64,000 nt of DNA from the NCBI RefSeq assembly GCF_000003815.2, contig NC_049983.1:24201062-24265061 (forward strand), written 5' to 3'. The position numbers and the translations under genes are program-made. The notes under the pieces were generated by a model that saw nothing but the letters and a program-made list of their open reading frames with translations, made no database searches and had not been told where the DNA came from. Of the stretch, positions 4,429-57,492 are shown piece by piece. How positions within the stretch are numbered: the stretch's first letter is position 1; each line of letters starts with the position of its first letter. Origin of the DNA: Branchiostoma floridae. Taxonomy: Eukaryota > Chordata > Leptocardii > Amphioxiformes > Branchiostomatidae.

Positions 4429-6518
4429 TTACAACACAGTAGCGTTCATCATGGCTGCCACCCACCTGCAAAATAAACAAACAAACATAAACAACAGTTT
4501 TGCCACATTTCTTCTATGCAGTGTGTTTAGTAAGCTAAGCAACACTGTTTTTTTTGTTGTGAAGTTGTTTGAGACATTTGCATATGTCTTGGTGCCAGAT
4601 ATAATTTAAAAAGTGTGTCAACATGCAAATCGAGTACCACTATAGTTATGCACTTCTATTTTCAGGAATTATGCAATACCGGTGCCTTTCTTTCTGGTAA
4701 TGTTACTTCAATTCATTAAAAACTACAGTAACTACTGTACCATGATGCTGAAAACGGCTGTATGGCTGAACACTACAGTATGAAGAAAAATGTTTAGATG
4801 CATTGCAATGTTCTGCGTTTGCTGTTCTTTATTGTGATAGTTTATACTAATGGTTAGAAGTACTTTCCAAGCAGAGGTTAGGCTCCGGCTGTTTTTTTAA
4901 CGTTTTTTTAAGTCGTTTTTGTTGGGCTTTCTATTTCGTATTGTATCTGGCGTACTTCAAGAAAAATGACAAAATAGAAAGCCCGATAAAAATGACTAAA
5001 AAAACAGCCGGAGCCTAACCTCTGCTTGGAGAGTAGGTTAGAAGTTCAAATTGGACTGATGGCTGTGATGTGACAGAATGCTATGATTGTGTGTCTTGAC
5101 GTTGTGTGTGCTGACATTGTCCACTTTTGACCGGTGTTTGAATAACAAAGTCTGTGTGTATCCAAGCTGGAATTAAGTTTTTGCAATAGAGTTGAAGAGA
5201 GGCATTCAAAAGAAACCAATCTGATCTGTTCGTTAGTAATTAAGCACACACATGTACAATTATATTATATCTCAGGTTGTATCATTCCAGTCAGATATCT
5301 AGAACTTACTTAATACTCATATAACACCATTACTATTTCTTGTATTTTCCACCTCTCTGACTGGTGTATTTTGTTTCTCACAGTTTCCCTAACAATATCT
5401 TTTACAGTATGTCCAATCTACATGAATGTAGATGCCACATGTAGGACTTCACATAAGACTTCATTTTCTTTATAGAGATGGTTGGCAATTTTTACCCCAA
5501 TTTTGCTTCCATGGTTTGTCTGGTCTGCTCAACATAATATTATGTAAAAGCAATTGATGAGGAAAAGCTGACATAAAGACACTCTGTTTTGTATTGTTAC
5601 AAATAAATGAAAAAAAAATAAAGGAGATGGTTTCTCACTTCTTGCTGGCTGCCTTGTCGTCACTGCGGAAGTAGACGTCAGGACGTCCCTGATGGGCCAA
5701 CTTGAAGATCAGGTCTGGGGGCGTGTCTTCTTGGGCCTGGGTTAGTCAAGAATTTAAAAGAAAAGCTTTCATGCAACTTTGAAACACACAGATTGTACAC
5801 AAGTTAACAGTAACTCAAGTTACAGCCATGGATTGATTTGGAAACCCTGACTGACGTGTTGTCTGTACTTGCAATTAGCCATCAGGCATGAAAATGCAAT
5901 AAACATCCAACATTCATCGGAACTAGCCAAAATTACATGTGGCATGCAAGGAACAACAGGGAGGAAAAAAGAGGTAAGCAATGAAAAAGATGGCAGGATG
6001 ATATCAGAGAGTGGACTGGCATGACAATAAGTAAACCATTAAGTATAGAAAAGTGGCTAGGGTGGAAAAAAAATTGATAGCTGCAACAGTCAAACAGGAA
6101 TGCTGTAAAATGCATTTAAGTTTGCTGGGATTTAATTTCGCGTTAGCGGGAAAGTGGAGTGTTCACGGTAGTTTTAAGTTTGAGTTAGTGCCATACACTG
6201 TAGTCACATGATGTAATGAAATAATGTTCGCGGTGGTTTTAGATTTGCGGTAATACTTCCTCGCGAAAACTGCGAACATAAAACCACCGCAAATATTTCT
6301 GCATTTACAGTAGAGATGAGTGAATTTCATACCTCTGTGAAGGTGGTAACAGTGAACCCCAGAAGAGGAAGACTCTCGAGTGCGGCTACGTCTTCGCTGG
6401 CCTTGTAGGTGTACAGAACCTTATCCTTCAGCACGAACCACAGCTTCCTCCAGCCTTCACGCTTTGTTTTCCTTTGTAGGTAGCCGCTCATGTCTGAGTT
6501 CAGATTATTAGCTGTCAC
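4429..6518 (-). CDS. FGD6: FGD6-like: PH2 domain exons (last three)
   Basis: Exon 6333-6518 encodes the first strands of the C-terminal PH domain ([32 protein letters not shown]). Exon 5639-5736 continues with [19 protein letters not shown]. The frame meets a stop just after KK if read through at 5637. However, GTGAGA at 5638 is a good donor, and joining it to 4465 restores the expected PH-ending helix: KK then [11 protein letters not shown] and TAA at 4429-4431. The final Trp is the conserved C-terminal helix residue of PH domains, which is why I place the true stop at 4429 rather than 5635. Residues about 1767-1872. Confidence 0.88.
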
Positions 6519-8997
6519 CTAGAAACAGGAATGGGTAAGACAACATTATAGCAGAAGATTCCTCCAGCCTTGAAGGTGTACAGAACCTTGTCTTCAGTAC
6601 AAACCACAGCTTCCTCCAGCCTTCACGCTTTGTTTTCCTCTGTAGGTAGCCGCTCATGTCTGAGTTAAGATTATTAGCTGTAACCTAGAAACAGATAAAG
6701 GGGAAAAGAAGATTGTAATAGAACCATACGCTTTGTTTTCTTCCCCTGGGCACAGTTATCTACTCAGGTTGGAGTTAACCTTGTTGTTGGCTGTTACCTG
6801 GTACAAAATGTAAATACAGCTTATGGTTAGGAAGCACATATTAACTTAGGTACAATGTAAGACCGTAACAGAATCACATCTAAGTTTTTGTCTTCTTCCA
6901 CTCATGTCTGAGTTCATCTTGTTGGCTGAAAAGAAATCGATGTGACTACAGTACAGATGCTTTCAGATGTATCGTTTGCGTCTGATCTTTCAAATAACAA
7001 ATTGCCACTTTAAGACTACAGGAAAAGCCAAGAGACAGCAAAATAAATCCATACTTTGCTGTACTGTGGATGTGAATGGAACACTGGTTTAAAAATCATC
7101 ACAGAGAACCACTTAATATATATAATAAGGCTTATTGTCTTTTGGTCTGACATCTTACTATGGTTTCCAAACCTACAATCATTATGCTATTTGGATCCAA
7201 ACCTACAATGCTATTCAACATTTGTATCTTCACGTCTTGTTATTTCTTCCATCATCCACTAGTGGCATGGCAAATATAATGCTAAAAGACACGATCCTAC
7301 AAGCACTAGTACCCACCTCTTTTAACACAGATGGGATGGACTTCTTTGCTTTTCTTGCCGTCTTCTTGAAGCTCTTGAAGCGAGCTTGGATTGTTGCTCG
7401 ACTCAGCCTGAACCCTCCCCTCTGCTTGTCTGGGTTTGCCTTATCAGGACTGTCCCCTGCACTGCTCCCATTATCATTAGCCTGGAACTCTGGGTGAGCA
7501 GAAACAGGGAGAAAAGTTGGTCAGGTTTAGTCAGGTCTAGACCTGGTCAACCAGGGTTCTAACCTAAGGCCACAACAATTTAATTTCTTGGTTCACGGAT
7601 TCGCTCGCTCCTATTTTTTGGAAAAAAAAATAAAAATAAAAATTACCACTCAGCAAATTTTCACCATTAATGAAACCGTTCATCAACTTTCTGGTGTAGC
7701 AAATTGGCCTTTATATCATAAGCTCCTTAAAGTGTGGGTACAGGTGCTGTTACTGTACAATAATAGTGTTTTTGTACTTTTTTCAAGCTGAAAACTTTTT
7801 TTCTTTATGTTTTGGATTAGCCGTTACCTTTACCCCAACCATTTTACAATTTTTATTTTTATTTCGCCCTTTCGCTCCATATTTTTTATGAAAAAATCCG
7901 TGAACCAAGAAATTAAATTGGTGTGGCCTAAGCGTCTGTCCTTTCATCCTTTAATGCAATTTTGCTGCTAGGGACGGACAAAAATTTTACCCACATTTTC
8001 GTCCTCTGTGATGGACAAAAATCAGCATGTAAAGATCTTCCAAGAAAATTTGCTACTAAAAACAAGAGTTCAGAGAACTCATGCCTGCATGAAATATTCA
8101 GTTTTGTGTAAATTTCTTGTTTTATCTTATTAATCATGCAAATACCACTTGACTGTAGTAAGCATTAATATATTTTAAATGATGGTCTCTCTATCAAAAA
8201 AATACATTAAACATGTGACAAGTCCATTCCATGCAGGCTGGAAGTCGACCCTGCAGACCAGAGGTTGACCCTGCAGGCCCCCTGTTCATCAGGTAACTAT
8301 TTCTGCAGTATGGGTTCATCAGGTAACTATTTCTGCAGTATGGGTTCATCAGGTAACTATTTCTGCAGTATGGGTTCATCAGGTAACTATTTCTGCAGTA
8401 TGGGTTCATCGGGTAACTCTTTCTGCAGTATGGGTTCATCAGGTAACTATTTCTGCAGTATGGGTTCATCAGGTAACTATTTCTGCAGTATGGCTTCATG
8501 AGGTAACTATTTCTGCAGTATGGGTTCATCAGGTAACTATATCTGCAGTATGGGTTCATCAGGTAACTTTCTGCAGTATGGGTTCATCAGGTAACTACTT
8601 CTGCAGACGTATGGGTTTATCAGGTAACTATTTCTGCAGTATGGGTTCATCAGGTAACTTTCTGCAGTATGGGTTCATCAGGTAACTTTCTGCAGTATGG
8701 GTTCATCAGGTAACTACTTCTGCAGACGTATGGGTTCATCAGGTAACTATGTCTGCAGTATGGGTTACTTACCAAAATATTCAGATAACATGCCTACTTC
8801 CTAAGGATTTAAGATGTCTAGCATCCTAACAAATAACAAGATCAGCACTACCCAAAAAGTAACAACTTGTGCCTACCTTTGGAGAGTCTTTCATAGCACT
8901 CCTCACAGACCCTGACTGCCTTGTAGTCTAGGTACTGCAGTGGGGCCCGGTTAGCTGAACAGGTGCCACACACAACCTGAAATCAATAGTTTAATTC

Positions 8998-9039
<42 letters not shown>

Positions 9040-12000
9040 TATTGGTCACAGTACAACCAATTGACATCATAACCAACCAATCGGTCTGCAATTAAAAAGC
9101 AGTCAAATCAACACATGGCCATCACTTTTTGTTGATCCTTTATTTTCCCCAATGATACAAGCATTAAGAAGCTTATCTGTGAGACTTTTCTTCAAGGTCC
9201 TTGAAAGGTTGCATAATAAACAGGTTTTCATAATACAAAATAATAATAATAATCTTTATTGAGACACGACAAAGGTACAGTGACTTTTGCAAGGTCTACA
9301 TGTATAACAGCTACTTACAGTACAACTAAAGACACATATATGGATATCTATAGGTATGAATAAATCAACATTAGCTTGTCATTTACAAAATATGACTTCA
9401 ATAGATTGCAAGAGATTCCATACACTACTAAAAGTACAACCAGTGTTACTTTCACTTCAGCAATTTAAACATCTCATAGCTTGAGTTGTTTGCAAGAGAT
9501 TCCAAATCTTACTAAAATATTCAGCAACTGTGAAGAGTTTATAAAAACAGTGAACCTTTCCACAAGCCCTGCAGTGATGTCTCCTCCAGGTGACAGTGAA
9601 GTCGCATGTACAGCCCATGCACATGGTGACTCTGGAGTCAGGAATCCACACAGGGGCCTTGTACCCCAGCACTAGGGAGTTGGACTTGTCTCCTGGCTGG
9701 GAAAGAAGGATAAAGGTTGGTTTATGTGTATGTTCATGTCAGCAACTTGTAAGTAGAACTGACAGTGAAGTCACAGGTACAGCCCATACACATGGTCACC
9801 CTAGGAGTCAGGAATCCACACAGGAGCCTTGTACCCCAGCACTAGGGAGTTGGACTTGTCTCCTGGCTTCGGTGGAAAGGGGGAAAAGGTGCCAAATTGG
9901 TAAAACTTTCAATTGGTAAATCAAGTGCCAAATTGGTAATAATCAATTTCTTCACAGTATCTGGTCTACTCTTGAGACTGCTTCATATGATGTCTTCTAC
10001 AGTACAAAGTTGAACACATATGAACTTAGATGTTAGTAATTAGTGCTGCAAAATCATACAGCCCAGTGTCTTTACATTAACATGCAATGCATGTACATTA
10101 AATGTTCCGTAAAAGGTTCAGTTTTTCCACATCTAACTTTTCTAACTTTTCCATACCAAAATTTCAAAGGAAAACACTCACCACAGCATCCACATGCCTG
10201 ACAAACTCGTCAAAGGTGCTCCTCTTGGCAGCGTTGTCTCTGATCGCATCGGTCAGGGCCTGCATCCAATCATCTCTCTCCTCTGAAGAGCTGTGACCAA
10301 TGAGATGGAAGGAAACAACAGTGATGTAACAGTATAATTGTTAGCAATCATCCAATCATCTCTCTCCTCTGGAGAGCTGTGACCAATGAGATTGAAGGAC
10401 ACAGCAATGATTTAACAGTAACTGTTAGAAATCATTATCCAATCATCGCTCTCCACAGGAGAGCTGTCACCAATGAGAAGCCAGGAAATGGCAATGAGTT
10501 AACAGTAATGGTTGGTAATCCTCCAATCATCTCCCTCCACAGGAGAGCTGCGACCAATGAGATGGAAACAGCAATGATATAACAGTAACCTTTTAGCATT
10601 TATCCAATCATCTCTCTCCACAGGAGAGCTGTGACCAATGGGATGGAAGGAAACAGCAATGACTTAATAGTAAGTGTTGGCAATTATCCAATCATCTCTC
10701 TCCACAGGACATATTTATTTGATCCACTCGCACCGGGAAGGACCCCTCCTCTTTTTGACAAGTGTGGTGGGTTCTTTAACACCCTCGAGGTGTGGTTCTC
10801 CTCAAACACGAGACCTCCATTTAACGTCCTATCCGAGGGACGGCCATAACTGGAGCTAGGTACTCATTTACATCTAAGTGAAGTGAGGAAAGTAGTGTGA
10901 AGTGCCTTTCCCAAGAGCACAAGATGGGTGGCACATCAACGGATTTAAACATAGAACTTCTGGGTTATGAATGTTAATGTTTTAAAGTTGATTCTGTGAC
11001 TGATGACGTATTTCATGTGTACATACATGCCAAGTCATCCAGGAATAAAGCTGAATCTGAATCTGAATCTGAATCTGAATCAAACACCATACCTCTGGTG
11101 CCACACGACCCTCTAGGATGCACAGATAGAGGGTTTCCACACCAGTTAACACAGGAAGAAACAGTCCTCACCTGGCTGACAGAGTGAATGACCTCTGCAC
11201 ACTGATGATGCTGAGCTCGTTGAGGAAGTCCTGAACAGGCTTCATCACCTTCATGCCTGCCAGCTGCAGCAAGTTGTTTAGCTTGTACATGCCTCCTTGG
11301 ATGGGTGTACAGTACAGTAGAGCATCGCTCATCTGTGGTGACATAAAGTATTGCTGTTAAAAACCTGAGGTACATGTACATGTAACAAGTTGTTCAGCTT
11401 GTACATGCCTCCTTGGATGGGAGTACAGTACAGCAGGGCATCGCTCATCTGTGTTGGAGTAAAGTATTCGTGTTAAAAACCTGAGTTAGCAAGTTGTTTA
11501 GCTTGTACGACTTGGATGCATGTACATTGTACATACAGTACAGCAGGGCATCGCTCATCTGTGGTGACATAAAGTTTTGAAAACTTGAGTAAGCATAATT
11601 TTTTTAATTGTTGTTCATCTTGTTGTTCAGCTTGTACATGCCTCCTTGGATGGGTGTACAGTACAGCAGTGTCATCTGTGGTGACATAAAGCATTGCTGT
11701 TAAAAAGCTGAGGTAGCAAGTTGTTCAGCTTGTACATGCCTCCTTGGATGGGAGTACAGTACAGTAGAGCATTGCTCATCTGTGTTGGAGTAAAGTATTG
11801 GTGTTAAAAACCCGAGGTAGCATAATGTACATGACACAGTAGTGCATTGCTCATCTTTGGTGACAAACATGTAAAGTATTGCTGTTAAAAACCTGAGGTA
11901 CATGTACATGTAACAAGTTGTTCAGCTTGTACATGCCTCCTTGTATAGGAGTACAGTACAGTAGAGCATCGCTCATCTGTGGTGACATAAAGTATTGCTG

Positions 12001-15000
12001 TTAAAAACCTGAGGTACATGTACATGTAAAAAGTTGTTCAGCTTGTACATGCCTCCTTGTATAGGAGTACAGTACAGTAAAGCATTGCTCATCTGTGGTG
12101 ATATAAAGTATTGCTGTAAGTGTTAAAAACTTGAGGTAGCAAGTTGTTCAGCTTGTACATGCCTCCTTGGATGGGAGTACAGTACAGCAAGGCATCGCTC
12201 ATCTGTGGTGACATTAAGTATTGCTGTTTAAAAACCCGAGGTAGCATAATGTACATGACACAGTAGTGCATTGCTCATCTTTGGTGACAAACATGTAAAG
12301 TATTGCTGTTAAAAACCTGAGGTACATGTACATGTAAAAAGTTGTTCAGCTTGTACATGCCTCCTTGTATAGGAGTACAGTACAGTAAAGCATTGCTCAT
12401 CTGTGGTGATATAAAGTATTGCTGTAAGTGTTAAAAACTTGAGGTAGCAAGTTGTTCAGCTTGTACATGCCTCCTTGGATGGGTGTACAGTACAGCAAGG
12501 CATCGCTCATCTGTGGTGACATTAAGTATTGCTGTTTAAAAACCCGAGGTAGCATAATGTACATGACACAGTAGTGCATTGCTCATCTTTGGTGACAAAC
12601 ATGTAAAGTATTGCTGTTAAAAACCTGAGGTACATGTACATGTAACAAGTTGTTCAGCTTGTACATGCCCCTTTGGATAGGTGTACAGTACAGTAGTGCA
12701 TTGCTCATCTGTGGTGACATAACATGTCTTGGACTAGCTACTAAATGACCTTAAAGTTTAAACATTTATCAGCTTTGACACTTTGCTACTGTTTATTTAT
12801 TATTTGGTCCTAATAAGAATATACTGAAAAAGAGAAAAAGAAACGCACACACAGACATGTTGAAACTGTCAACTGTCATGGGCTTAGCATGTGTGCAGCC
12901 ACCTATGCTCCATAATAACCATTGTTAAAACAGATTTTGCTACATTCTGCTAGAAATTTAGAGCCCTAGAGAGGGAACCTGAAAGTTACACAATGTCTAC
13001 AGGGTGGGCTTGTAATAGTGTAATTTGTAATAGTGGAGAGCTTGAATGTGTTAGATGATGTGTTAGATAATGTGTTAGATGGAGACTCAGTAACAAGATA
13101 CACACACATACCAGGAAGAACATCCTGGGCTGCATCTCCTTCCTGGACAGCTTCTTTAGCATCCCTTCCTTCAGCAGTTTCTATGGCAACAGACAGGTGT
13201 AAACAACACTTCATGAATTGCCCATTAACTCCATAATTCCATTCCATCATGGGATACACAGAATTCCCATTGTCATTTAACTTTTTTTTCTTTGTTAATA
13301 TGAGCCCTAGGATTCTGTTACATGGCCCTGAATATGCCAAATAAGCTTACTGCCAAAAGAAGCAACATTCCATTATCCTTATTGTCTGTCTACACATAAT
13401 GTACCTCAGTGTACAAAAGTTGGTTCAATTTTTATGAAATGTACAGTGCTGAAAAGTTTAATTTCATGGCACTAAAATGAATATAAAACCAAAAACCACT
13501 GATGAAGTCTCCCATAGATTATATGATGAATAAAGAAGAAATAAATTCAGAAGAAAATGACGAAATGCCTCACCCTGCCTGGCTTGACGATTTCATGCTG
13601 GCCAATCAGGCTGTGTTGGATCCGTAGCAGCTTCTCAAAATTGTCCTGTGGGGGAGGGGGGGCAGTAGTTTTGATTGAATTTGTGTACTTTATGAGAAAA
13701 GTCGTAAGATTAAATCTACACGGTTTGATAATTTGCCCAAAGTACAAATTAACGGTGATAACAATGTATCACACAATCCTTAGATCTTTGAAATTGCAAA
13801 GTATGTCTTTTTTAGATATTTTCTTTTAGATATTCATTTTTATGTAAAACTTACCCCTTGTTTCATTCCTTCATTAGCATGGTCAGCTACCTCACTGACT
13901 ATGGATAAGGCCACTGAAAACAAAAGTAAAGACATTTGCTAAATGAATACACATTTATGAAATACAATTATCAAATATAAAAGTTCATACTGTAAGGTAC
14001 AAAAAAGCAATTGATATTTTAATTTAATTGAATCTATACTATAATCATTATACCTTTAGTGTCCTTGTAATCAGGTGACTCCTCTGTCAGGTGCTTGAGG
14101 TAGTCTGAAAAACAGAAAGCGTCACTGTACATGTTACCCAGGAAGTTCTCTTATCTCCATGCAAGTGTGATGGGTTCTTTAATGTGCTTAAGAAATGATC
14201 ATGGTACTATTTTAAAGTACTTGAAGAAACGGTTGATTTACCATCCAGCAGCATCTTGTACTGGGGGATCCTCTGTATGGGTTTCAGCATGTAGTGTTTA
14301 ACTGCCAGGTTGGCACATCTGGGGCTCATCTGTACAGGGGGAGCAACAGATATATGGGTGATTAATTAATCTGATGTCCATTTTGAATGAGTTCTCTCAT
14401 GACTACTTATTCAATATGCCTATTTCAATCATACAGAATTGCTGTTTTTTTGTGCAATAAAAAATTTTGTTAGCAGCAACTTTTACATCTGTTCACATTT
14501 ATATCAGTATGCAATTACAATATCTTACTTAATTCATTTTAATCTATTTACTTGCCATTGACTACCTGTAATTCAATGCAATTCACTCCTTGTTCTAAGA
14601 TATTAATGACCAACCTGCTAAAGAGGCATTCTGAAAAGAAATTATCTGTGATCACCATGTATGATGTAAGGTAGCAGGATTGGGGTTGATATGACTAGCA
14701 CACAGTTAACTATACTACTACTAGAGGCTTTTTCAAGTTGCAACTTGTTTTGTACACTTTTCTCTCACCTGGAACTCCTTGACAGTTGCTGCAAACTTGG
14801 GAAGACGTCTGCAAGCCTCATCCAGTGCAGAGGTGGCCTTCTCAAAGTCCCTGATGTAGGTGGTGTAGAGCTTCAGGTACGGGCCCTTCTTAACTATTAC
14901 ATCTGCTATACGGGGGTCCTGCTCCCTGAAAACACATGCCATGAAAATAAAACAGTCAATTCTTTGGACTTCTTTGTCTCTGCAACTCTCTCCCTGGATG

Positions 15001-18000
15001 AAAGGTCCCTTTTCTCTGCAAGCATAAGTACATTTGAGCACGCACAAAGAAGTGCTGAAACAATATCTACTGCAAAAAAAGAAAATAAGACTGTTAGGAA
15101 AATAGACGACATAAAATCCAGATTGTGTGGACTATTGGCAGAATGTATGTAGGTTGTAAGAGAATGAGTACCAAGTTAATATGCCTTATCCCTCAGAAGC
15201 CCAGAAAGCAAAAGTTACACAATATTCCTTTACATGTACAAATCTGTTACACAAAGTTGCAACTACATTTATATATTAGATAAACTGAAAGGCATTCTAC
15301 AGATTATGTAGCCATGGGTCCAGCCTTGTTCACTTTAGTCTGCTCCCAAAGGTCACTAACTGCGACCTTCAGGAGCCGACTAAAGCAAACAAGGCTGCAC
15401 TCAGGGCTAATCTCCGCAGCAGAACCTACGGTAGTATCAAAAAGTTGGCAGAGGAGTGAAGCTGGCCTAGGAGTTTGTTACCCTACTGTTGCTCATCTGA
15501 CTTCCTTTCACCGGCTATACTCCTTGGCCAGCTTTGATACGATCTTATGGCACCGTAGGATCTGCTTTGGGATTAACTCTAATCTTCAGATTACTAGGAA
15601 TTCCATACCAATTTTCCACCCTCTCCTTGAAGTCCTTGAGGAGACTCTCGTTGAACTGCTGCAGCTGTGGCAGGTACATCAGGATCTGGGTCATGCTGGT
15701 CTCCTCTATGATGGCCTGGCCTGGCGCTTCACTTGCAGTGTCTACAGCTGATCTGAAGTCCTGAGGTGACGGACAACAAACACAGTCTAAGCTGTTCTAG
15801 TCACAACTCAAGAGACTTAGAGTAAATGGTGAAATATGGCTACTTAAGACAAGATTCTTAATGCTTTGGTCAATGGGAAAAACAACTAAGGGATCACCAA
15901 AGTGTGGTCACAATGGCCAGCTAGTTCTTGACCTGGTATTTGAGGATAGTTTTACGGACTTTGACTGTTAATACTGGGTGACAGTTTGAAGAGCATCTAG
16001 AGGCCACTCTTGAGACTAAGGTGTCAAAGTAGACAAAGGGCCACTGTAGACTACAGATTCTGTATGCTTACATCAATGGGAAAGAAATCTAGGGGATCAT
16101 CAAAATGTGGTCTGGTGGTCCTTACATAGAGAAGGTTTGAGGACTTTGACTCACTGTACAGAAATGCATATCTGTAGTGACCACTTACTAAAGAGGGAAA
16201 TGGACACAATAGACACTATAGGGGGTACCCCTCGGTGTTCCCCACTGGTAGGTCACAGCATCTAATTGTTACCAAAAGCCAGCCAGTGAACTGCACTACC
16301 GGGCCCCTTTTTCCAATTTGGGCCCTAAGCCTAATCAGTGTCAGACTCTGTTTAGTTTCAGCACCAAGGACAGGACATAGTTTCAGCACCAAGGACAGGA
16401 CATTAACTTCCGTTGTAGAGTACTCAGAGTTAGCCAAGTTTTCAGAAATTCACTCGCCTATCGGGCAAGTACGCAGAAAATCTACTTGCCCAAAATTTAA
16501 AGGCTATTTTTCTATGTATTTTCACTCCCAGCAATATCATTCTTTTATCATTGGCTCAATTTTTCTGTGTTGACCAAAGCTTGATGCCATGACTGTGAAA
16601 AGCAACAAGGATATCAAAATCTCACTCCTGGAAAAATCTTGCTTGCCCGATCGAGCAAGTCGTGTAGGACATACATGTGTATGCTTGCCCGATGGATACA
16701 TTCACTTGCCCTGGACAATCAGGCTCGTGGACTTGTCCAACTCAGATACTGAACAATGGCAATGCTTACCTCATTAAGGAGCTTCAAAACGTCCACAAAT
16801 CTGCAAAAACAAAAGTTACCATGAATAACTTTCATCAACCAAATTCTATCAAAATGTAGCATCAAAGTTGCAGCATTGAAAATTCGTCAAGCTTTGTAAA
16901 ATTGATACTTACACTTCCTCTGAAGACATGATCTCACGGGCGATGTAGAAAGCTTTGTCCCCCTTCAGTGCTGGCGGCTGAAAGTGAACAGGAGTTATTC
17001 TGATCTATCATATCTCAGAGGGTGTTTGAACCATAAGGCTATTGAAAATACACTCTCACTCATTCCACTGAGCTTGCTTGGAACAAAATGAAAAGACAAA
17101 ACAGCCATTGATGACAGTAGGCAGGTAACTCACTGAAGCTGTGGCATATGGCGCCGTGGCTAAGTCCTAAATTGGATTCGTGTTACCCTTGACTTCATAA
17201 TGGGAATATCATACAAAACACAAAATACACAGTATGTGAAAAGATGAAATTCGTTGAAAGTACCCTGCTGAGTGGTCTGAAAATTAGCCTAACAACTAAT
17301 TAGTTATATATGCCAAGTTTACATTTTGCTATCGTAAGGGCCTAGGCATTATTTTTTCATGTCAAACCAATTTTGAGAGGGTCAAACAGCCTGAACTTGA
17401 AGGGAAAGACTTCATACCATGAGTTCTGTTAAGACAGTGTGACTTTCAGTTTGAATCTTACAATGAACAGAAACTGAAGGTAAATTTTAGAAAGACAGAC
17501 TGTGACAGAAAGTATAGACATTGACATTAAAACAGTAAAGAGGCAACGTATTCGTACAAAGTGAGAAATCATTTATTACTGATAGATTGTAAATCACATT
17601 TTTCCTATCTACAATTTTGGATCATTGACAGATTAACAAATGTAACAACAAAGAAAGTGGAAGCTTAGATTAAAAACCACTTGTAGTGTGGAGCATAATA
17701 ATAATTATTGTTCAATATAGTACAAAAACAACAAAGATTATGGCAGAAAAGAACAAATACCATGATAATGCATAATGAAGCAAAATTAGACATGAAACAT
17801 TCAAATATCATGCGACACATAGAAACAAAGACTGAGTCTGCCATCCCCATATCATATGATCAAAGGTGTGTTTCATAGACCCATATTATGAGTCCTAAAT
17901 TGGTTTAATCAGAAAAAAAACTTTCAATTAGAAATAATTTGATGAATGGTAGCCTTGACAGGCCAGCTTTCATTTCTGTGTTGAAATTGCAAAAATCCCT

Positions 18001-21000
18001 AGCTGTTTAATTGATCAAATAATTGCACCTTTAAGTTAAAATATCAGGACTTTGGAAACTACATGAAATTACATTTAAGTTAAGTGCATGATTCGGGCTA
18101 ACATTACAGACAGTTTCAGACAAATTAAGTTAAGGATTTCATGACTGAAGCTTCATTGTAGGCTTCAACAAAGAACTGAAGCATAGTAAATGTTGCTGGC
18201 TCTAATTCTTATGATCTCTTATTACGTTTCCAAAAGCATCTATGGCAAATCTAACGGGAAAGCTGGGTCAAAGCTGGGTCAAACTGAAACTAGAATCTAT
18301 GAAAAAGATCAGAAATTTAATATCATTAAGCTATCTATTCTGAGTAGCCTTCCACCACCAGCACAAAAATGCCTGAAAATGCAAACAAACCAAACTCTGC
18401 AAATTAGTACAAAAAATGCCACATTTAGGGAATGCGAGTGAGAAGGAAGGCAGGCTGCACCTTAGCTAGGAGGGAGTTATATTAATTAGGCACCTACTTC
18501 TAAAATATATACTCTTTTTGTTATGCTTTATTCACCCTCCTTACAAGCAAACTACTAGTACTTTGTTAAGTTTACTTTCGTTAATTGGAGCACACCCAAA
18601 GCATTTTTCAGTTATATATTGTGTAACCGTATTGCACTATTAGTTAAACTCCTTGCACATTACAATAGAAAATACAATTTGATAAAGTTCTATTAACTGC
18701 AACTGAGCTACTCTTACTAGTATATCATTGTCATTGTACAACATAATGTCACCATATCAAAATGTTAAGGCAAGAATATAGTATGGCTTTCGAGACTTGG
18801 TCCTATGTACAAGTAGGATAAATACTGTAACAACAAACAGTAGTTATAGAGTGGTCACAAATTGACTGTAACACTGATGAACCTTATCTAAAATGCTTTC
18901 CTGAGCAAGAAAAGTCTTTGCTGTCACGGAATTCGAACTTGTGACATTTGTGCCTCAAAGAGAAACCTTCCCATCTGCTTGAAGCTTCTTATGACACATT
19001 TGAGACAACAATCTACTAAAGGCATATATCTACAAATCAATATCTTTGTACGTCTTCATTTATCATGGGCAACATACTGTAATTGACTATGAATGTTGCA
19101 ACAATGTTCTTTCCCTTTCATATAGTTGATGATAATAAGAGCTTAATACATAAATGGCACGTGAAAAGGGAGTTACGCACATTCCTTTACTTCCTAAGTA
19201 CATCTTAAACATTAAAAGGTGTTACATAATACTTCACAAAAAGGCCTCTGTAGTACGAAAAAGTTCTTGAAAGAGGGTGTGCTTATTCCAAAGTTTAGAG
19301 TTTCATCACCCATTTTTCGATCCAATCCTTTTTCTCAGCCTTAAGTCTAGACTTCTCCCTCCTACGCATAAGTGCCTCCTGCCTCTCTTCAAGGTCGCGA
19401 CCTGACGACGGCAGGGTCAACGACCTCTCCCGACCCCCCTCGACCCCTCCACGACCGTGGGGGGAGAGCGTGCGTGACCTCCGTGCGGACAGAGGCGGCG
19501 GCGGCGGGGCAGGTCTACTTGGTCTGGAGGGGGTGACTTTTCCCGAGGGACAGGCTGAGGCCATAGGGACAGGTGAGTGAGAAGACTGGACCTGCTTTAT
19601 CTGATAGAAAGAGGAGGAAAGTACAAAATGAAGATAGATCAGTTTAGAAATTGACGGACTGACAGACATCAGTGACACTTTCAAAGTTTGTAAGAACAAG
19701 ATGTAACAACAGGGTTATGTTGCGTTGGTGCGAAGGAAAAAAATGTTGACAAAAAAGTCATTTAATAACAGTGTTCTCCCTTTTGGTTGGCATGGTGGCA
19801 CAATTTGCTGGCTTTTTATCTGAAATTGTTGTTTTGGAAACAAGATGTAAATGTTCTGAAGGGATCGCTTCTTGGTATACTGGAGCCATTATACCAGCTA
19901 TAGGTGTACATTCAAGTAAAAGATGAAATGTTTTCTGAAGATAAGTAGAAAGAAGAAGGCAAAACAGCACAGAACTATCTATCTCCTTGCCAGCCGCATA
20001 AGAATTATCTGTTGCACCTTGATGCAAGAGTATCAGAATTATGCTATACTCTGCTGCAATTCAACAATATTCCCTGCAAAAACTTCTGAACTAGAAGCAT
20101 GCATACCTTATAAACCAGCCCTCACACCACACTCCAACGTTAACAGTACCAAACTGCCTTACTATGTCTGCCTTGCCCTCCTCCTCCTGTCCTTCCTCCT
20201 CATCTGAAGAAGATTCCTCCTCCTCCTCCTCGGAGCTCTCAGCCTCCTCCCTGGCTCCTGCCGACCCAGACTCTTCTGAGGAGACCTGGCTGTTGGAACT
20301 GGCCTCGCTCACGCCTGACAGCCTGGCCTGGGGGAAAACAGATACAAAGAATGGCTTTAGAATTGTCCAAACACAGACCAATAAACTTTAAGGTATGTTA
20401 TAAGGAGTAGACCTGGCTGTTACAACTGGCCTCACTCTCACCTGACAATCTCGCCTAAGAGAGGAACGAGATGTACATGTTGTATGGAATGGATTTAGAT
20501 CTGTTCAAATACAAACCAATAGGGTAATATAGGGTTAATGACCCGACTTGAGGTGTATACACGGTGCCATAATTCATGGCCAGTTCCTAATAACCACTGA
20601 ATGAAGCGACCGAGTCCGCGTAGCAGATGAGGACGTTTATGAGGTGGTTATAGGAAGCGGCCATGGGATGGACTTAGATAAGCCTACAACTAGTAACCCA
20701 TCACTAGAATGGGTAATGATTTATCAAATGTAGTTGTAGACAATAGACTACATGGAGTCCCTCCTATAGCTACTTATCAATAAAAAAAAGAGACTTTGGT
20801 TCAATGCTGTATTTGGGGGAAAGGTGATAAAATCAAGCAATATAATCTTACATTGTAAATCTGTAGAGACTCATCGCGCCTTCCCACCATTTATGATTCG
20901 CTGCTACCTGACGTCATCCGACGACTTCCGGATAAGTCAGCAAATCATTTCATCTGAAGAAGGTCGGAGTGCTCGACCGAAAATTTATGGTGAGTCCCTT

Positions 21001-30885: not shown

Positions 30886-32040
30886 ATGAAGGGCTACCTT
30901 TGGGTGCTTTTCGTGTCCCTTGGTGTTGGTTATTCTGGTGGTAAGACAAACTTCACTCAATTCTTGTGAGCCAAACTCCAAATAGATGTGTAGCGTGGGC
31001 TATGTCTCATCTTGCAGGTCTTTACTTAAGGGAATGGTTGTCTTTGTTGACAATAACAATAGCAATTCTCTCGCACTAGTTCCTTTGCCAGGAATGTTAT
31101 TTCGGTAGCGTTTGTATGTGTGTATATACACGTGTGTATGTAAACGTTACATGTATATATGTATGTATGTTTGTGTATGTGTACATGTATGTATGTTTGT
31201 GAATGGACAAGAATAACTCGAGAAGCCCCTGATGGATTGTAATGATATTTGGTACAGGGGTAGTTCATGATGAGACCTTGACACGGTTATATTTTGAGCC
31301 CCCTAGCGGCTTGGTACAGTACTGTAGTGGATCTTCCGGTTTTGTTACCTCGAGTTCTGGATATGCTATTGTCGTGTTTTTGCGGCGTACATGTACATAT
31401 GTAGTATAGGTAAGTAATTATATGTGGTGTAGGTTTGTGCCCCTAGCGGCTTTTTAAACTGCAGGAGCCAAGTTTATTTTCTGACTTTGAAAGAGAATAA
31501 GTCAAGTAGTAAATGACGGTTGGTCAAGATTATTAAGAGGAGCGATGAATGTTACTCAAAACGTCCGGTGGTAGATCTCCGTTTTGTATCCGGTTGTAGA
31601 GATTGAATTGTTTTTTTATATCGCTCTGTCTTGTCTTATATTTAGGAACACCACACACCACGGAAAGCTCGCTTGTGTCCAAGCTAGTCACCGACGTTGT
31701 GCCCACCCGACAGCAAACGGTAGGCCACGGTCTCAACCTGACCTCAGAGTCCGCCCGCCTGCCGACACCGTCCTCTGCGGAGACCCCTACGTCGGAAAGA
31801 CCGGTCTCAACGACCGTCAAACTTCCGCTTCAAACCACAAAGTCGAAACCAGCCAGAACCAACGTCGCGACTAACCCCGGCAGCGGGCTCGGGGTAGAGA
31901 GGCACCACCGACCGCTGACTCTGTTCGGTCAGCTCGGTGCACCCCTAGGGGCGGCCCCGCAGGCCAGGGATCCGTCCTGCCCGCCTGTTAACGGGAGCGA
32001 GCCGCCGCAGCTGGTGACTTCGGACGGTTTCTACAAGAAG
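30886..32040 (+). CDS. Membrane protein gene: signal peptide and Thr/Pro stalk exons (1-2)
   Basis: Exon 1 (30886-30940) gives [18 protein letters not shown], a typical signal peptide. The ATG has a good context (ACGCC before it) and a GTAAGA donor follows. Exon 2 (31646-32040) continues in phase with [10 protein letters not shown] and about 130 residues rich in Thr, Pro, Ser and Arg without predicted structure, likely O-glycosylated, ending DGFYKK at GTGGGG. A downstream in-frame extension past 32040 is open for 80 more codons but loses coding character and is intronic. Confidence 0.82.
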
Positions 32041-34948: not shown

Positions 34949-34988
<40 letters not shown>

Positions 34989-35047
34989 ATGTGTTTGTGT
35001 GTGCATGTGTGTGTGTGTCTGTGTGTGTGTGTGTGTCACTGTGTGTC

Positions 35048-35102
<55 letters not shown>

Positions 35103-38100
35103 AGTATAACTCGAGAAGCTTTGGATGGATCCTGATGATATTTATTAGTAGGCTTTTAGGGGTCAGGAAAACGAAGGCCAGGTTCAATAATAGGCCTCAT
35201 AGCGGCATTCTAAGGTAATGCAGCGAAACTTTTTACTGGAGCAGGCAAGTGCTACACTGTTTGTCTGTACTCTTTCACGTTACCTGCAGTTAGCCAAGGA
35301 TTTGCAATAAACTGTCACTGATAACGTTTATCTGTACTGGTCATACACACATAGTCTTACTCTTATCGAGTATCTTAGTTCCGCATTCCTTAAATCGACA
35401 GTCGAATACGTTTTCACAAACCTCCCTTTTCCCCAATCTTTTGCTAATACCCTTTTCTTTTCAGCCTCCTTTCTTTACATTCTCCTTACATTCTTCACGG
35501 TGTCGCTTTCATCTTTATTTCTTCATATTCCCGTGGCTTTTCTTTGGCTCGCTCATTCACTTTTTCTATTGGAAAATATTGAATCTAAACCATTTTGTTC
35601 GCAGGTGACCGCAGACCGGATAGAAATCCTGGCCACCGACGTCGCTCTAGACGAGACCAGCGCCCTGTTCGACCCTTGTAAGGACTTCTACCTGGAGACG
35701 GTCAGTCTGACCATCAAGGTATCTATCTATACATTAATCTGTGTAATTAATAGCTAAACCCATACAGTCCTACATTTTCACCATTACCAAGAAGCGAGAA
35801 GAAGCCGAAGTTCTGTGTTAGACTAGATTTTTGATACTTTTATATGTATATACATATATATTTTGACTTGTTGTGACCTGTACTTAGCTCGGTTGGGCAA
35901 AACTGTACACTAAAGGTCTTAATTCATTCTATTAATCATTTCTCTATTGTTTTCCTAATACAGAAGTTCGGCTTCTTCTCGCTTCTTGGTATTGGTGAAA
36001 ATGTATGCGTAGGACTACATGAGTTTAGCATGCAATAGTCGGTTTGTGAAAACACATGAGGAATATGAACTTGTCAAAACTACTCATGTGCAATTTGAGG
36101 GAATATACCCTCTACAGAACTAAATAGAGTTTCTGCATCGTTAACATACATAGTACAATCAACAACGAGGTGTTCACCTTCTACCATCTGTTTAAGGTAC
36201 AAAATTGACACACTTTTTATATTCCTGATTTTCCTCATTTTAGGGCCACCTGCGCTGGAAGGGGCGGAGCGTGTACATCTCGGCGGTGAACCTGACCGTG
36301 ACCGGGGAGAGCGCGGCTGTGGACGTGTCGTACTCTGCTCCGGGACAGCCCGACAGGGACACCCCCGCACAGAGTGGTACCGCCCAGGGGCAGGCGGGGC
36401 AGGACGGGTAGGTGGAACCTCCAAGCAGATGTTGGGAGGGAAGATTGAAATGTCTTCTGAACGGGTGCCGGTTGTTTGTGAGTCTGAAAAAAAAGGGCTG
36501 CCAGAAAACATTAAACAGCTCCACATACTTAGGCAGCACTAAGGATACATGTACAAGGATACAACACACACAAACACAACACATACGCGGCACTGGAAAA
36601 CACACACGCACACACACGCACATCCCAGCATACATACAAACAAGCACACACACACACACGCACTCAAACACGCTAAAACACACAAATAAACACACACACG
36701 CACACACGCGCGCATGCAATGGTACCAAAGTAATACTTCATTAATTCCTTTAAAATTGTAATTGAGGTGTCATACATTTGAACAATGTTGAATATATAAG
36801 ACTAGCTTTTCATATCATGTTTACTGTGGTCTAACATGTTAATGGTGATATATTTTCATTTGTGTATTCCAGCCAGGCCGGTGGAGTGGGCCAGAGAGCA
36901 GGAAACGCGACGCTGTATGTGGGGTTCCTGTTCGGCGGGCAGCTGGAGGTGCTGGCCCGGGGAGGGTCCGGGGGACTGGGGCAGGCTGGCGGGGACGGGC
37001 ACGTTGGGGCCCCGGGACAACCTAACCAGTAAGTACTCGGGATTATATTGTACAGAGGGGTGGGGATGCTGGCGCGGGGAGGGCCGGGCGGAGTGAGGCA
37101 GGCTAGTGGGGATGGGCACGTGGGGGCCCCGGGACAGCCTAACCAGTAAGTACGGAGGGGTGGGGTGCTGGCCCGGGGAGGGGCGGGCGGACTGGGGCAG
37201 GCCGACGGGGACGGGCACGTGGTAGCCCCGAGACAGCCCAACCAGTGAGTACCCAGGGTAATACTGTACGGAGGGGGTGAGGTGCTGGCCCGGAGAGGGG
37301 CGGGCGGACTCGGGCAGACCGGCGGGGACGGGCACGTGGGGGCCCCGGTAAGTACCCGGGGGTTATACTGTACAGAGGGGTGGGGGTGGGGTGCTGGCGC
37401 GGGGATGGGCGATCGGACTGTGGCAGGCTAACCAGTAAGTACCCGGGGGTTATACTGTACGGAGGGGCAGCTGGAGGTGCTGGCGCGGGGAGGGGCGGGC
37501 GGACTCGGGCAGGCCGGCGGGGACGGGCACGTGGGCGCCCCGGGACAGCCTAACCAGTAAGTACCTTGGGGTTATATTGTACGGAGGGGTGGGGTGCTGG
37601 CACGGGGAGGGTCGGGCGGACTCGGGCAGGCCGGCGGTGACGGGCACGTGGGGGCCCCGGGAAAGCCTAACCAGCAAGGCCTGGCGTTAGTAAATGCAGA
37701 CCACAAAACATTGTCACAACTTTCTTTTTGTTGAACATCACAGAGAATGTGCCACTTCATGTTGACTTCCCAATTGTAAGAACTTCAAGTATGACCCGGG
37801 AGAAACTATCAAAATATGTAATTTGTTAGACGACTGTCGTTCTTTAAATGGCAAGTGACATAAGACAACGGGCATTTACTCAAACGGCTTACTTTGTACA
37901 TACATGGTGTTTATCCGGAGTTTATACAGTGTCATAGAATGACACATGTTTCTCTTGTCTTGTCTGTAATCTTTATTAGGCCTTTAGCACTGATGATTGG
38001 TTGTGGGACAAGAGAAGATATCTCCTCCACAGCCAGGTTACAGTTCAAACCAACTTTCTACCGATATATCTACGAAACTCTAAACCACAGCACGTACAAG

Positions 38101-41100: not shown

Positions 41101-44100
41101 TACAGTACATTCCATTCTCTCTGTTCATACTTGTAATGTATCACACAATTCATCCTATAGGCTGCGATGTCTTACAAATAAATCATTCTCATTCTGATTC
41201 ATCCAAACGGTGTTTAACCGCCAATTGTGAACGTTCGACTTTGTTATTTTTGTCAAGTGATGCAATTTTTTTTTGCTACCAATTCGATTATTGTCCAGAG
41301 CTGGTTGCTTTGACGTCCTGATCAAAAGGCCATCTCAGCGACATCACGTAGTCCTGCTGAAATGTACATTTCAAGATAAAGTAATACCAGAGCTTATACT
41401 GAAACTTGCAATTTTGGTCTATTCAAAGTTCCTTTAGCACTATAACATCAACGTCCAAAGAGACTACTCTAGTTAATCTCCAACCAGATCCACGGTGCGT
41501 AATGTATAGTATCAAACTACCCGTTTGACTCCCTTAGTCGGCTACACTCCTTGGCCAGCTTTGATACTATCTTATGGCACCGTAGGATCTGCTTGGAGAT
41601 TATACTCCAGTGACATATGGGAGTCAGCATGGGCGCCACCATCCGTAGTAACCGTTGGCTGAATCTTCGCCGTAGTTAGCAAGCGAAAAGATTGAGCCAG
41701 CGGTTACTACAGGGGATGGTATCTACATATAGGCTACACGGGAGTTAGTGTTTAAAGAGGATTTTGTTTTTGTCGCTGTGTGCAGGTTACCGGTACTACA
41801 AGGAGGGTTCTGTGGAGTCAATAAGAGGTTTTGTTTCTTTCGCTGTGTGCAGGTAACCGGTACTACAAGGAGGGTGCCGAGGAGGCGGCCCGGAACGTGT
41901 ACCTGTGGATCTACTTCACCATGCGGAACTCCAGCCGCCCCGAGCTGAGGGGCCACGCGCGGGAGGCCATGATCTATCTCATGCAGATCCAACACGGTGA
42001 GTCTGTTGTTATACATATGTAGATACAATGTAAACAATGTACACTTGACTATGAGGACTTCATGCTACTGAAATGTGTTGCAGTTCTAATAAAAGGACTT
42101 ACCGTTAGCATCAAGCGAGCAGGGGAATTGAGCTCGTACTAACAATACATGAAACCTTAAATCATTTTTCACAAACTGATTCAAGGTACGTCATCACGTC
42201 CTTTAATGCATTAATCTTGAAACAGCAAAATGAAATTTTGCAGGACTTGACTTCTGGGCGCACGCGCAGAACAACATCCCGATGAACTCCTACAGCAGTA
42301 TCTACACGTACCTGTCCACCGATATCGTGCCCTACGCCATTGGTGAGTTTCGACGTTGGAACGTCAGGATTTCTTTGCCTTTTTTATTCGTCCCAACAAC
42401 CTTGCCTTCGTTAGAGAATTGCAACAACCTTGCCTTCGCTAGAGAATTGCAAATAGCGCTTGTGATTAAAAAAAAGTTCTCTGTACCTCAAAGCATATTT
42501 TGGAAGTCTTACTTCAGCTTAGTATACCAAAAGCTCAGTGTTTGCAACTGAAATACTTTGGGTTACACTAACTGACAGCCTACAACAAGCAATGATTTAC
42601 AGAGACACATATGCATGTTCTGCAATCACGACTCGAGACTGGAAGGACTAGCCTTAAGCAAGTAATATAGACAAGCAAGCAGATGAATCATAATGACAGA
42701 AGCCTGTTTAGCTTCGTCTTAAAAAGTTTTACATGTAAGTTATACCCATCATGGGGTAATCGCGCGGGAGTTTGTTCAATCAAAACCTAGAGACTAACAT
42801 AATTGTTGTTTGTAACATTTGCATTGTTTCTCCCTGTAGACGTGGAGAAGGACTATAATCTGTACTTCGCGGAGGCCACGTCCCAGGAGCAAAAGATGGT
42901 GGTGGCGAAGAGCAGCATGGACCACAACAAGTTCACCATCACGGTGCTGGAGAAACAGAAAATGGAGAAACTGGACGAGCTCACACAGGTATCTGCGGCG
43001 TTTGGCTCCTCATTGCCCTGGTTGCAATCATCATTCCGGTAGTAAGTAGTTACTCGCCGTTCGGAAAATAAAAATTTACAGAATAGTTGTCAACCTTTTC
43101 TGCTGTCTCTACAGAAGTTTTTATCAGACTCAAATGACTATCTAGGATGATGCGGATACGTATCAATTAGTCTTGATTAACCAACATGAAAGTAACCAAA
43201 CCTAAGTGGTGGTAACGGTAAGAATACACTTCTGAAACAGTGCGGATTACCGCCAATGTCAACCATTCGAAATCACCGTGACCTGATATTTTTACGTGAA
43301 TGACAATAACTTAGTACAGCGGAAGCCCATTTAATTGCACGTCGGATAAACGCATACTTCGGTCAATTGCACGGAATCCCCAAATCCCGTGGCGGTGCGG
43401 TCCAACTGGGTAACTTCCCATTATCGCTCACACCAGATAATTGCATGGGATTCGCTGGCCAATTGGGTGTGCAATTACGCGGCTTCTACTGCATACGAGA
43501 TCTTTGGAGAGTGTGAGAACACCACCTCCATCATTTGTATTCGTTTATGGCCACCGGCAAGGGAAAGGAAAATGAAATTTCTTAACTGGGCGTTTCTAAT
43601 TCTTTTAAAATTTCTTAAAGATCCAGTCTGAGCTGCGTGACCTTGAGCAGCAGCAGGCAGTGCGGTTGGCGCGTGCGCAGGACGCCACAGCTGAGTGCCA
43701 GGATGCCATCGAGGCTGACCTGGTGCACAAGGCCACGGCCATCCACTTCAGCGACATCCTCAAGATCGCAGGGGCGGCCATCAAGATATACGCATCTATA
43801 TACACAGGTTAGTCGGGATCGTGTGGCGTAATTATAACTACAGAAGCCAGAGGTCCGGGGTTCAATTCCTGTCATGCTACTGCTCTTGTGCCATTTATAC
43901 CCCCCTCACATTAGGCGCGATTCGATCGGACGATGAGTCTGCGAGCTCTAAATTACGAGGAGGCATGACCCTGACGGGAAGGGGGAACTCTGCCATTTCT
44001 TCGTCGGCATCAGGGTCATGCCTCCTCGTAAATTAGAGCTCGCAGACTCGTCGTCCGATCGAATCGCGCTTAATGTGAGGGGGGTATAAGGAAGACACTT

Positions 44101-47100
44101 TGCACGACTTTTCTCGTTCCGAAAATGGATACCTGACCTCGGTTGATGAGTGAAAAGACGTTGGGAGGAGAGGGTTGGTATCCGTCTTATATATTGCACC
44201 ATGCTCTAGACACAGTGGATAACAACTGATGCTACGGCCTTAAAAAGGCTATGGCCTTTACCTATGCTTTAGTTTGACATCTATTTTGTGAAAGTGCTAG
44301 GTAATGTGACTTAATGATTACCTGAATGTTATGGGAAAATATAATTACACTGGATTAATACTATGTCTTGGTTTAACAGGTGGGCTGACCTTGGAAAGCG
44401 GCATTAAAGACATCATCGGCGCCTTGGAGGCCGGGAAGAAACTCGGGGGTCTGGACTTTTTAGACCAGCTGAAGGGAGTCAAGACGATCATCAAGAACAT
44501 CTGGGGCACCTGGGACAAGGACAAGGTGGGACGGCATTCTCTGTACTCATTTGGTCATGTTTTGGTGCAATATTAATGGTGATATTCTGTTCCTGAAGAA
44601 CTGTGTATTTGTATGTGGTCTATAATCTCCAAGCAGATTTACCGGCGGCATAGCCATAGGACAGTTTCAAAGGCAAGGGCCGAAGCAATATCCAACACAG
44701 GCTACCGGTGGCATTTGGATACTACTTGGCCGGCTTTTGATACTGTCTTTTGTCACTGGTAAATCTGCTTGAAGATCACTGACGTGCTGTATTAGTCGTA
44801 CGCTGTGTCGACGAATATGTGACACGCTTCTAGTTACAATGGAGCATGAAAGAATGAAAGACACCAACGGAAACAACAACATCGGTTTGCTGTCTTCGAT
44901 GTTTTGTCTACGAATATATTGCACGCTTGTGTTATGACAGTGTTGCAGAGGAATCTTTAAAGTACCAACCGAATCAAATGAAAGCAGTTAAACAACATCG
45001 GTTTAACACAGTCTTTCCTGTTTTCTCCAGGGTATCATCAAGTCTGACTTGAAGGATATAGAAGAGCAGTACGAGAAGATCAAGGACACGCTAGACCACA
45101 CGGGTCAGGAGAACCAGCAGAAGATCGTGGTGGACGGGCAGAAGTTTGACGAGCAGTTCGACAAGTGGCTGTACCTGGCGCAGTGTCGGGAGGCCAGGCC
45201 CAAGATACAGGCTTATCTTAACGTTACACAGTGAGGGCTTTAATTCTGTTCATTCAATATGCTAAGCCGATATGGTCGAGGGGGCTATACATCTCTTTTG
45301 GCTTTTTAGCAATACATGTACTTTTTGATAATCAGTTTACGTTATCGGTCCTTTTCTACGTTGTTTGGCACCTTCTTCCCTATCATAATGTTCTCTCGCT
45401 ATCCAGTTGGTGGTTTCACAAGCGTTTCTCATCTGTTTTCTGCGTAGATCAGAGCTTATAATGGCAAGCTGATTGACTGTGAATTCGTCATCAACAAGCA
45501 AGCCACAGTGGCAGATTAAAACTTACCCTGGAATATAACTTACCTTGCCGTACATGTTGTTGATTGTAAACCTTGTTTCTTCCCCAGAGCCGTGAATGAC
45601 AAGTTGGTCCACCATGACGCTGTCGTCATCAAGATCCATCTTGTTGTTTTCCGTGTGATGACTTTCATGACTTTAAATCATTACTTCCCTTGTCAGAGCC
45701 GTGAATGACAAGCTGGTCCACCATGACGCTGTCGTCATCAAGATCCATCTTGTTGTTTTCCGTGTGATGACTTTCATGACTTTAAATCATTACTTCCCTT
45801 GTCAGAGCCGTGAATGACAAGTTGGTCCACCATGACGCTGTCGTCATCAAGATCCACAGTCTGGACGCGGAAGTTCAAGTTCTCCAGCAGCAGAACGCGC
45901 GCCTGCGCAGTGCGACGGCCGCAGTGTTTGACCCCACCATCATCAGTTACGCCATCGCCATTGGACGGGTCTACGTACAGTTAAAGGTGGGGTCCAGTCT
46001 AGGATAGAAGCAGAGAATCAATGTCTTGTTAGATTCCTTGTACACTGTGTTTTGCTCTAAAGCACATTCCTCTTTTCTCCTCTTTTGATGTTTCAATTCT
46101 TAGTACAAATTATTAAAAAAAAGCAATTTTGCTCTGTAACAAATAAAAAAATACTCTGACTTACTACAGAAGCAACAACTACGGAACGGGGACAATCTAT
46201 GATCGTTTCCCGTTCAGGAGCTGAACATTGCTTCTGCCTACGGATCTCCAAATTAATCCGGGGCCCGGTCGGGCTGCTTCTGCTTGGGATACCATAATTT
46301 TCGATCCCGCAAGCTACTCCGCAGGGCGCAGGTTTGGGGGTGCGATCCTGGCATAATAACCGATCAAACATTATCAAACGACTTAGCATAAAAGTTCTGC
46401 TGTGTTGTATATGACATTATGGATAAACTAAATTTAACTTACCAACACTAAGGTAAGTTGGGACTTATGCCAAATTTACAGCTGACTCCGTAGGACTTGT
46501 TCACGGAATGGACCCGTCTACTGTAGCTTCCGGAACTTGAGGTGGAGGCATGTGACTGTAGCAGAGGGTCGTAAATGCCAGATATCCTATATTATCAAAC
46601 GGCTGGTTACGATTTCGATTTATGCTTATGTATATATTGTAACTTTGGTTTGCTGATTGTTTAGTTTATCTTATTTCTTTGTTATGTTATTTTGTGAATG
46701 TTATTCTGTACAGGGCAAGCCTGGAAAGCAGTGCGCAAAGCACTGGGTGTGTTCAACCCTGTATGAATAAAACAGAAATAAATAGATAGATAAATAGACT
46801 GTTTTCTTCCATCTCCGTGCAGGATTCCATCGTTGACCAGATGAAGCGGCTGCAGGAGGCCTATAACTACCAGTTCCTGGAGCGGCGGCCGTTCTCGTAC
46901 GACGACTCGCGCATGGCCATGATCGAGGCCTGGCTCGCCAACAACCGGATATCCATGCTGCAGCGCATGGAGAAGATCGGAAATGACGTGCAGGTAAAGG
47001 CTCTTCTGTTCAGTTCAAAGGTTTTGTGACCATCAAGGCTGCAGTCCAGTCCATGACTCACTCTCCGAACCCGATGGATATGTACTGTTCTCCCCACGTC

Positions 47101-52470: not shown

Positions 52471-52931
52471 AGGATATGAAGACGTACATGTATGATTCCA
52501 ACAAATCCTTGCCTCAGAGCTGAGCGTTAGTGTGACAGAGACTTATCAGGTTATCGTGGGAATAATATTACACGTTTATTCTTTATGATTATATATACAT
52601 GTATATGTCAAATTTGTAATGTATTGACAAACGTACCGGGGGGAATATTTCTACACGTTTATTCTTTCTGATCATATCCTTAAAATTTGTAACATACCAA
52701 TGTCATTAAACTCCGCAGATATGGAAGTATTTTCCCCGCTCGTATATGCCTAACATCTATGTAATATGTAACTGTACCTCTACAATGTAAACGACCTCCT
52801 AGGCACACACAGAATTCAATCCGCCGCCACAGCTATGGCTGATAACGTCACATTTCCTAACCGGGGCCCGGCCCGGCTGTTAGTGGAAAAGAACAATAGA
52901 ATTAGAAATGCATACGTAAAAATAGACACAA

Positions 52932-57240: not shown

Positions 57241-57256
57241 GAAGAGACTCAGCAAA

Positions 57257-57385
57257 AACAATATATTGCAATCCCATACTATGTATGGATTGCAATATAA
57301 CAATATATTGCATCCCATACTATGTATGGGGATTGCAATATAACAATATATTGCAATCCCATACTATGTATGGATTGCAATATAA
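57257..57385. repeat. Three tandem copies of a 43-bp palindrome
   Basis: The unit is AACAATATATTGCAATCCCA followed by TACTATGTATGGATTGCAATAT. Each unit folds on itself (ATATTGCAATCC against GGATTGCAATAT). The copies sit at 57257, 57299 and 57343, between the satellite and the right end of the large element. Confidence 0.9.
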
Positions 57386-57492
57386 TAATGCCCGCGATTA
57401 TTCTCTTTACGCCTTGTGTATTGTTGTCATTTATATCATAATTTTCGTTCCCGAAAGCTGCCCGGCCGGGCCCCGGTTTGGAAATGTGACGT

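Follow-up and report, generated by a model that had tools for sequence, protein, structure and literature searches.

Mirages in lancelet genes: tandem copies of single exon-intron junctions at eight sites of one window and in a small genome sample

Tandem duplications of an exon-intron boundary have been published in amphioxus as "mirages", in Adh3, the globins BflGb6 and BflGb9, TnC and PGBD5 (PMC3087553, PMC3902484). Length and somatic instability have been reported for them, and splicing has been described as undisturbed (PMC3087553, PMC3902484), the latter being suggested by RT-PCR and Adh3 data (PMC3087553). The BflGb9 mirage measures 157 bp and lies over the 3' boundary of exon 2, while that of BflGb6 measures 150-160 bp, covers the 3' end of the intron and the 5' part of exon 2, and differs in unit number between two haplotypes, with 6 in one and 3 in the other (PMC3087553). 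No genome-wide mirage count was met in a literature search confined largely to open-access papers.

Here we analysed a window, meaning the whole stretch of 64,000 nucleotides of Branchiostoma floridae DNA at C5:24201062-24265061, in which a first-pass annotation had listed eight junctions with extra copies of themselves in the neighbouring intron and had noted that such a class may already be known in amphioxus. The class is indeed known there, and all eight boundaries were found at the exact coordinates, each with its exon edge repeated in the adjoining intron and with the annotated split into seven acceptors (6518, 9696, 10290, 11332, 20327, 41853 and 45806) and one donor (37028). Like the published mirages, the window sites are tandem duplications of one exon-intron boundary on the acceptor or donor side, with units of tens to ~160 bp and with AG or GT kept in many, not all, copies; they differ in their hosts, an FGD-like gene and a plus-strand gene, and in their number, eight over the 31 kb spanned by the two genes. 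They are new members of the published class, to which the density estimate given below is the new addition.

Two other systems invite comparison. In intron gain by tandem duplication in potato RdRp (PMC4974935), a boundary-crossing duplication likewise carries ready splice signals, whereas the coding exons of the window are unchanged and no new intron is inferred. Introners (PMC9860276) are likewise extra sequence bearing splice sites. Mirage copies, in contrast, are local: the 6518 unit, the sole one tested, gave two matches only, both local, in a search of the 513-Mb, 431-contig genome that skipped very common words, which rules out a dispersed element for this unit.

Globin genes served as a positive control: a search for the family returned 10 matches, and nine of them, taken with their flanks, went through the duplication screen used for the window. 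Judged by repeat structure only, a 157-bp duplication over an exon 3' end (L034) fits the published BflGb9 mirage, and an array with 4.2 periods of 158 bp over an exon 5' end (L038) fits that of BflGb6; both matches agree with B. floridae as the source of the genome. The duplications in two further regions (L033, L037) do not span an exon, and five of the nine regions lack any; that in L037 (1151-1347) is intronic and begins 20 bp past the predicted donor without crossing the junction.

Eight mirages on two genes of opposite strands

With splice sites read off the sequence, both host genes splice into open frames. The FGD-like gene has 16 minus-strand exons, from 24829 down to 6333, which together give 1893 codons without a stop. 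The start of its largest exon (24829) is the limit of the open frame, the acceptor there being putative, and at the low end the gene continues beyond 6333, with a predicted exon at 5639-5736. Its C-terminal 506 residues match RhoGEF, PH (two stretches) and FYVE in Pfam, in the order RhoGEF, PH, FYVE, PH, which we take to be the FGD arrangement. The RhoGEF match (6.6e-36) begins at profile position 31, so the preceding exon is probably missing from our model. The plus-strand gene was read as 885 amino acids, its frame uninterrupted up to a stop codon in the final exon, with a hydrophobic stretch near the C terminus; these 885 residues matched no Pfam family at E 0.01. The genes and their mirages are as follows.

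6333..24829, minus: FGD-like gene, 16 exons, hosting five mirages
6400..6723, minus: acceptor 6518 mirage, 119 bp of exon, unit 167 bp, one copy plus an older third
9591..9890, minus: acceptor 9696 mirage, 106 bp of exon, unit 169, one copy, intron-side homology weak
10263..10709, minus: acceptor 10290 mirage, 28-31 bp of exon, unit 84-86, four copies plus a fragment
11268..12727, minus: acceptor 11332 mirage, 60-65 bp of exon, unit ~116, 13 copies
20278..20521, minus: acceptor 20327 mirage, ~43-50 bp of exon, unit 127, one old copy, 72% identity
36873..49511, plus: plus-strand gene, 16 exons, hosting three mirages
36928..37678, plus: donor 37028 mirage, up to 109 bp of exon, unit ~99-117, six copies
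41755..41884, plus: acceptor 41853 mirage, 32 bp of exon, unit 68, one copy
45585..45856, plus: acceptor 45806 mirage, 51 bp of exon, unit 109, two copies, 98.8-100% identity

Self-BLAST of the window returned local direct duplications at all eight junctions, and TRF reported arrays at four of them (10290, 11332, 37028 and 45806). We took as the real junction the member that is continuous with the remainder of the exon. Every site repeats a single junction, that is, a part of the exon plus, in most, some adjacent intron. The most similar pair of a site is between 72% (20327) and 100% (45806) identical, a spread which indicates copies of different ages. At 6518 a more diverged third copy lies near 6800; the nearer copy is interrupted by a 1-base gap within its exon-derived part and, as it stands, cannot therefore substitute for the real exon in frame. 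Three of the 13 copies in the 11332 array are truncated in the exon part.

Other repeats lie in the window as well. A minisatellite at 8284-8766 (30 bp, 16 copies) is wholly intronic in the FGD-like gene and touches no junction. TRF also reported two short repeats in the big coding exon of that gene, at 22344-22450 (period 48) and 24666-24730 (period 30); both periods are divisible by three, and both repeats were missed by the duplication screen described below. Two large arrays lie outside both genes, one at 52930-57389 (unit ~162 bp) and one at 60253-64000 (unit ~291-298 bp), the latter reaching the window end and containing an N run. Within an intron of the plus-strand gene, a reverse transcriptase open reading frame on the minus strand (38712-40289; RVT_1, 7.4e-31) is a retrotransposon copy or remnant.

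Placement of duplications relative to exon ends

We screened for copies 30-1500 bp apart at BLAST E <= 1e-5, with low-complexity repeats cut by 3-mer entropy. The gene spans of the window hold 10 local duplications, eight of which span a junction, where random placement of single units expects 1.87 (P 1e-4). When whole arrays as now present are placed at random, 4.45 are expected (P 0.019); this control is severe, since arrays expand at the place of their first unit. A hand-made list of nine units of at least 50 bp gave 8/9 (2.08 expected by single-unit placement, P 6e-5; 4.25 by whole-array placement, P 0.008), and with short repeats included, 8 of all 17 listed repeats span a junction (2.48 expected, P 6e-4, and 5.33, P 0.09, respectively).

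For comparison we drew 27 regions of 10 kb: 19 with one per large contig (C1-C19, 17-35 Mb long), inside its first 14 Mb, one extra from C5 that lies ~0.23 Mb away from the window, and seven more that came first among 80 length-weighted draws. One region (L016) is all N, and four (L022, L024, L025 and L029) hold more than 500 N each. Before counting we removed L016 and all regions lacking three predicted exons in a row. A duplication with its centre outside the gene spans was retained only where it crossed an exon end. A kinase family search for homology-defined exons returned 129 rows, mostly long uninterrupted frames, and gave no usable exon loci; the exon sample therefore depends on our own GeneID-like predictor, trained on this window, which at a cut-off of 15 recovered 26/32 window exons exactly and overlapped 31/32. 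Sample counts use a cut-off of 18. Gene spans were found in 16 of the 27 regions and comprise 98,126 bp with 88 exons, whose 176 ends may include start and stop codons.

Half of the 16 in-gene duplications in this sample span an exon end, five at acceptors and three at donors, so that either boundary is affected here as in the window; 2.46 were expected (P 0.001), and the exon edge was found copied in the intron in all eight cases. The excess is stable over exon-score cut-offs from 15 to 26 (P 0.0002-0.002). Under whole-array placement 7.08 are expected against the eight seen (P 0.41), which counts against a junction excess. Junction copies also occur, then, beyond the window. At least one mirage occurs in five of the 16 gene-bearing regions, and the eight fall on seven of the 88 exons (interval 4-17% for 8/88). 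The window is denser, with 8/32 exons affected (Fisher P 0.033), as expected of a window picked for its oddness. Taken together, this small random sample suggests that mirages are common in this genome and overlap exon edges beyond even placement.

Five random genes bear mirages. The four that were compared with Pfam are supported by it, namely a DCDC1-like gene (L006), a TLDc gene (L014), a CEMIP-like gene (L015) and a cadherin (L026); the fifth lies in L029. The first of these (C4:6075917-6085916) carries four mirages on three of its seven predicted exons, one exon being apparently affected at both ends, so mirages may cluster by gene. Its predicted acceptor at 9516 probably belongs to a copy, with the true acceptor ~41 bp further in, still inside the array. 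With L006 removed, 4/12 duplications span an exon end (1.77 expected, P 0.085).

Proposed origin, tolerance and persistence of the copies

We consider it likely that mirages are DNA-level tandem duplications of one junction each, tolerated by way of the intact exon and kept recognisable by its conservation. A segment covering one splice junction, with part of the exon and some adjoining intron, would be duplicated in tandem, for which we infer replication slippage or unequal exchange, an origin that fits the observations; some duplications may later expand into minisatellite arrays. A copied acceptor with no strong donor close by, or the reverse, would escape exon definition, and mirages would be tolerated because the gene retains one complete exon with both splice sites. 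They would stay recognisable because one array member is the conserved exon, with which the other members perhaps go on recombining.

The intron side of the copies agrees with duplication of DNA. With L006 9516 left out, at least one copy shows intron-side homology clearly above shuffled controls in 13/15 mirages, the shared intron sequence running from ~30 bp to beyond 100 bp. At 9696 the homology is marginal (score 6 against a shuffled maximum of 5) and at 20327 it falls below the control (4 against 5); a separate pair alignment of the latter does align the flank. None of the 26 screened duplications of the two combined sets falls entirely within an exon, where 2.7 would be expected in the absence of selection, as is in keeping with tolerance. 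None of them has both an acceptor and a donor either, which is weak evidence, the expectation being a mere 0.2, or 1.6 when units are doubled. Copied acceptors of the window never have a donor scoring above 4.0 inside 250 bp or as far as the real junction, against a mean of 5.2 (sd 1.1) for real donors, and such partnerless sites would fit tolerance by exon definition. Against this explanation, three copied acceptors at L006 3672 have a nearby donor of 5.4, and tolerance together with slower decay does not fully account for the junction excess.

That excess bears on how much chance alone can explain. Abundant local duplications, some of which overlap junctions in compact genes while those inside exons are purged, could produce mirages by pure chance and survivorship, a reading that we regard as quite possible, if short of probable. 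Duplications are indeed abundant: the first 20 regions, of which one is all N, contain 26, or ~1.4 for every 10 kb sampled. The first-pass annotation had held that chance would rarely place duplications in this way; about two in 10 would span a junction by chance, and the part of the claim that stands is the excess over even single-unit placement, 3.8-fold in the window (8/10, 1.9-2.1 expected), 3.2-fold in the random sample, and 16/26 against 4.6 expected in the combined sets (P 5e-5, the lowest value that 20,000 draws can give). Copies anchored on an exon should lose similarity more slowly, one member being conserved, and in a weighting for slower decay they were given weight 2. The ratio then drops to 2.3 in the window (8 against 3.5, P 0.004), to 1.8 in the random sample (8 against 4.4, P 0.041), and 16 are seen against 7.8 in both (P 4e-4). 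With doubled units in addition, the harshest combined variant, the values are 8 against 4.7 (P 0.036), 8 against 6.2 (P 0.24) and 16 against 10.9 (P 0.032), respectively. A modest residual excess is left in the combined set and is insecure in the random set alone, where the last weighting, whole-array placement and the removal of L006 all favour chance. Mirages are no older than other duplications (median identity 88.6 against 87.6, Mann-Whitney P 0.98), which speaks against a pure slower-decay account.

The ~2-fold excess left after weighting could instead mean that some feature of the junction raises the duplication rate there, the candidates being the polypyrimidine tract, a nucleosome edge, a co-transcriptional R-loop, or the exon as the sole stable anchor between divergent haplotypes. 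Copies of at least 85% identity show the same excess (12/18 mirages, 3.3 expected). The numbers are small, however, L006 alone provides four of the eight random cases, the window was singled out for its oddness, and the acceptor-to-donor ratio of 12:4 is not significant (P 0.077). A real mutational bias toward junctions is thus possible and unproven, and we hold junction-directed duplication to be rather unlikely.

The first-pass annotation had also suggested selection for decoy splice sites that regulate splicing, which found no support and which we regard as very improbable. AG or GT is retained in 37/40 copies, on a hand list that omits L006 9516, copies with unplaced sites and part of the 10290 and 11332 arrays, and 14/44 copied sites equal or exceed the real site in score (one of the 44 being scored out of register). 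Neutral decay at the rate of the exon parts nevertheless predicts just 6.4 losses where three are seen (P 0.10), and the copies are non-independent. Among the intronic copies of the 10290 array, exon-derived parts differ less than intron-derived ones (13% against 23%), as decoy selection might predict, but those of the 11332 array are about equally diverged (25% against 26%), and the 6518 copy carries its gap in the exon part.

Amphioxus is highly polymorphic, and merged haplotypes in the assembly could in principle yield near-identical units such as those at 45806. Many copies are well diverged (from 72%) and several are gapped, and the globin repeats fit those described from an older assembly and traces (PMC3087553), all of which makes an assembly artefact highly improbable. 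RNA-templated or exon-only copying, with ends snapping to the splice site, could be read into the copies farthest out at 45806 and at 37028 (and almost into the 9696 copy), whose intron side shows no homology beyond shuffled controls, but is rejected for most mirages by the intron-side homology reported above and scarcely credible overall.

Implications for lancelet genes

Lancelet gene models may include false exons at mirages; an annotated PGBD5 exon is argued to be such a case (PMC3902484). More tentatively, and we think it doubtful rather than likely, lancelet junctions may be a genome-wide duplication hot spot touching about one exon in twelve and clustered by gene, which would provide a stock of spare splice sites for new introns, exons and isoforms.
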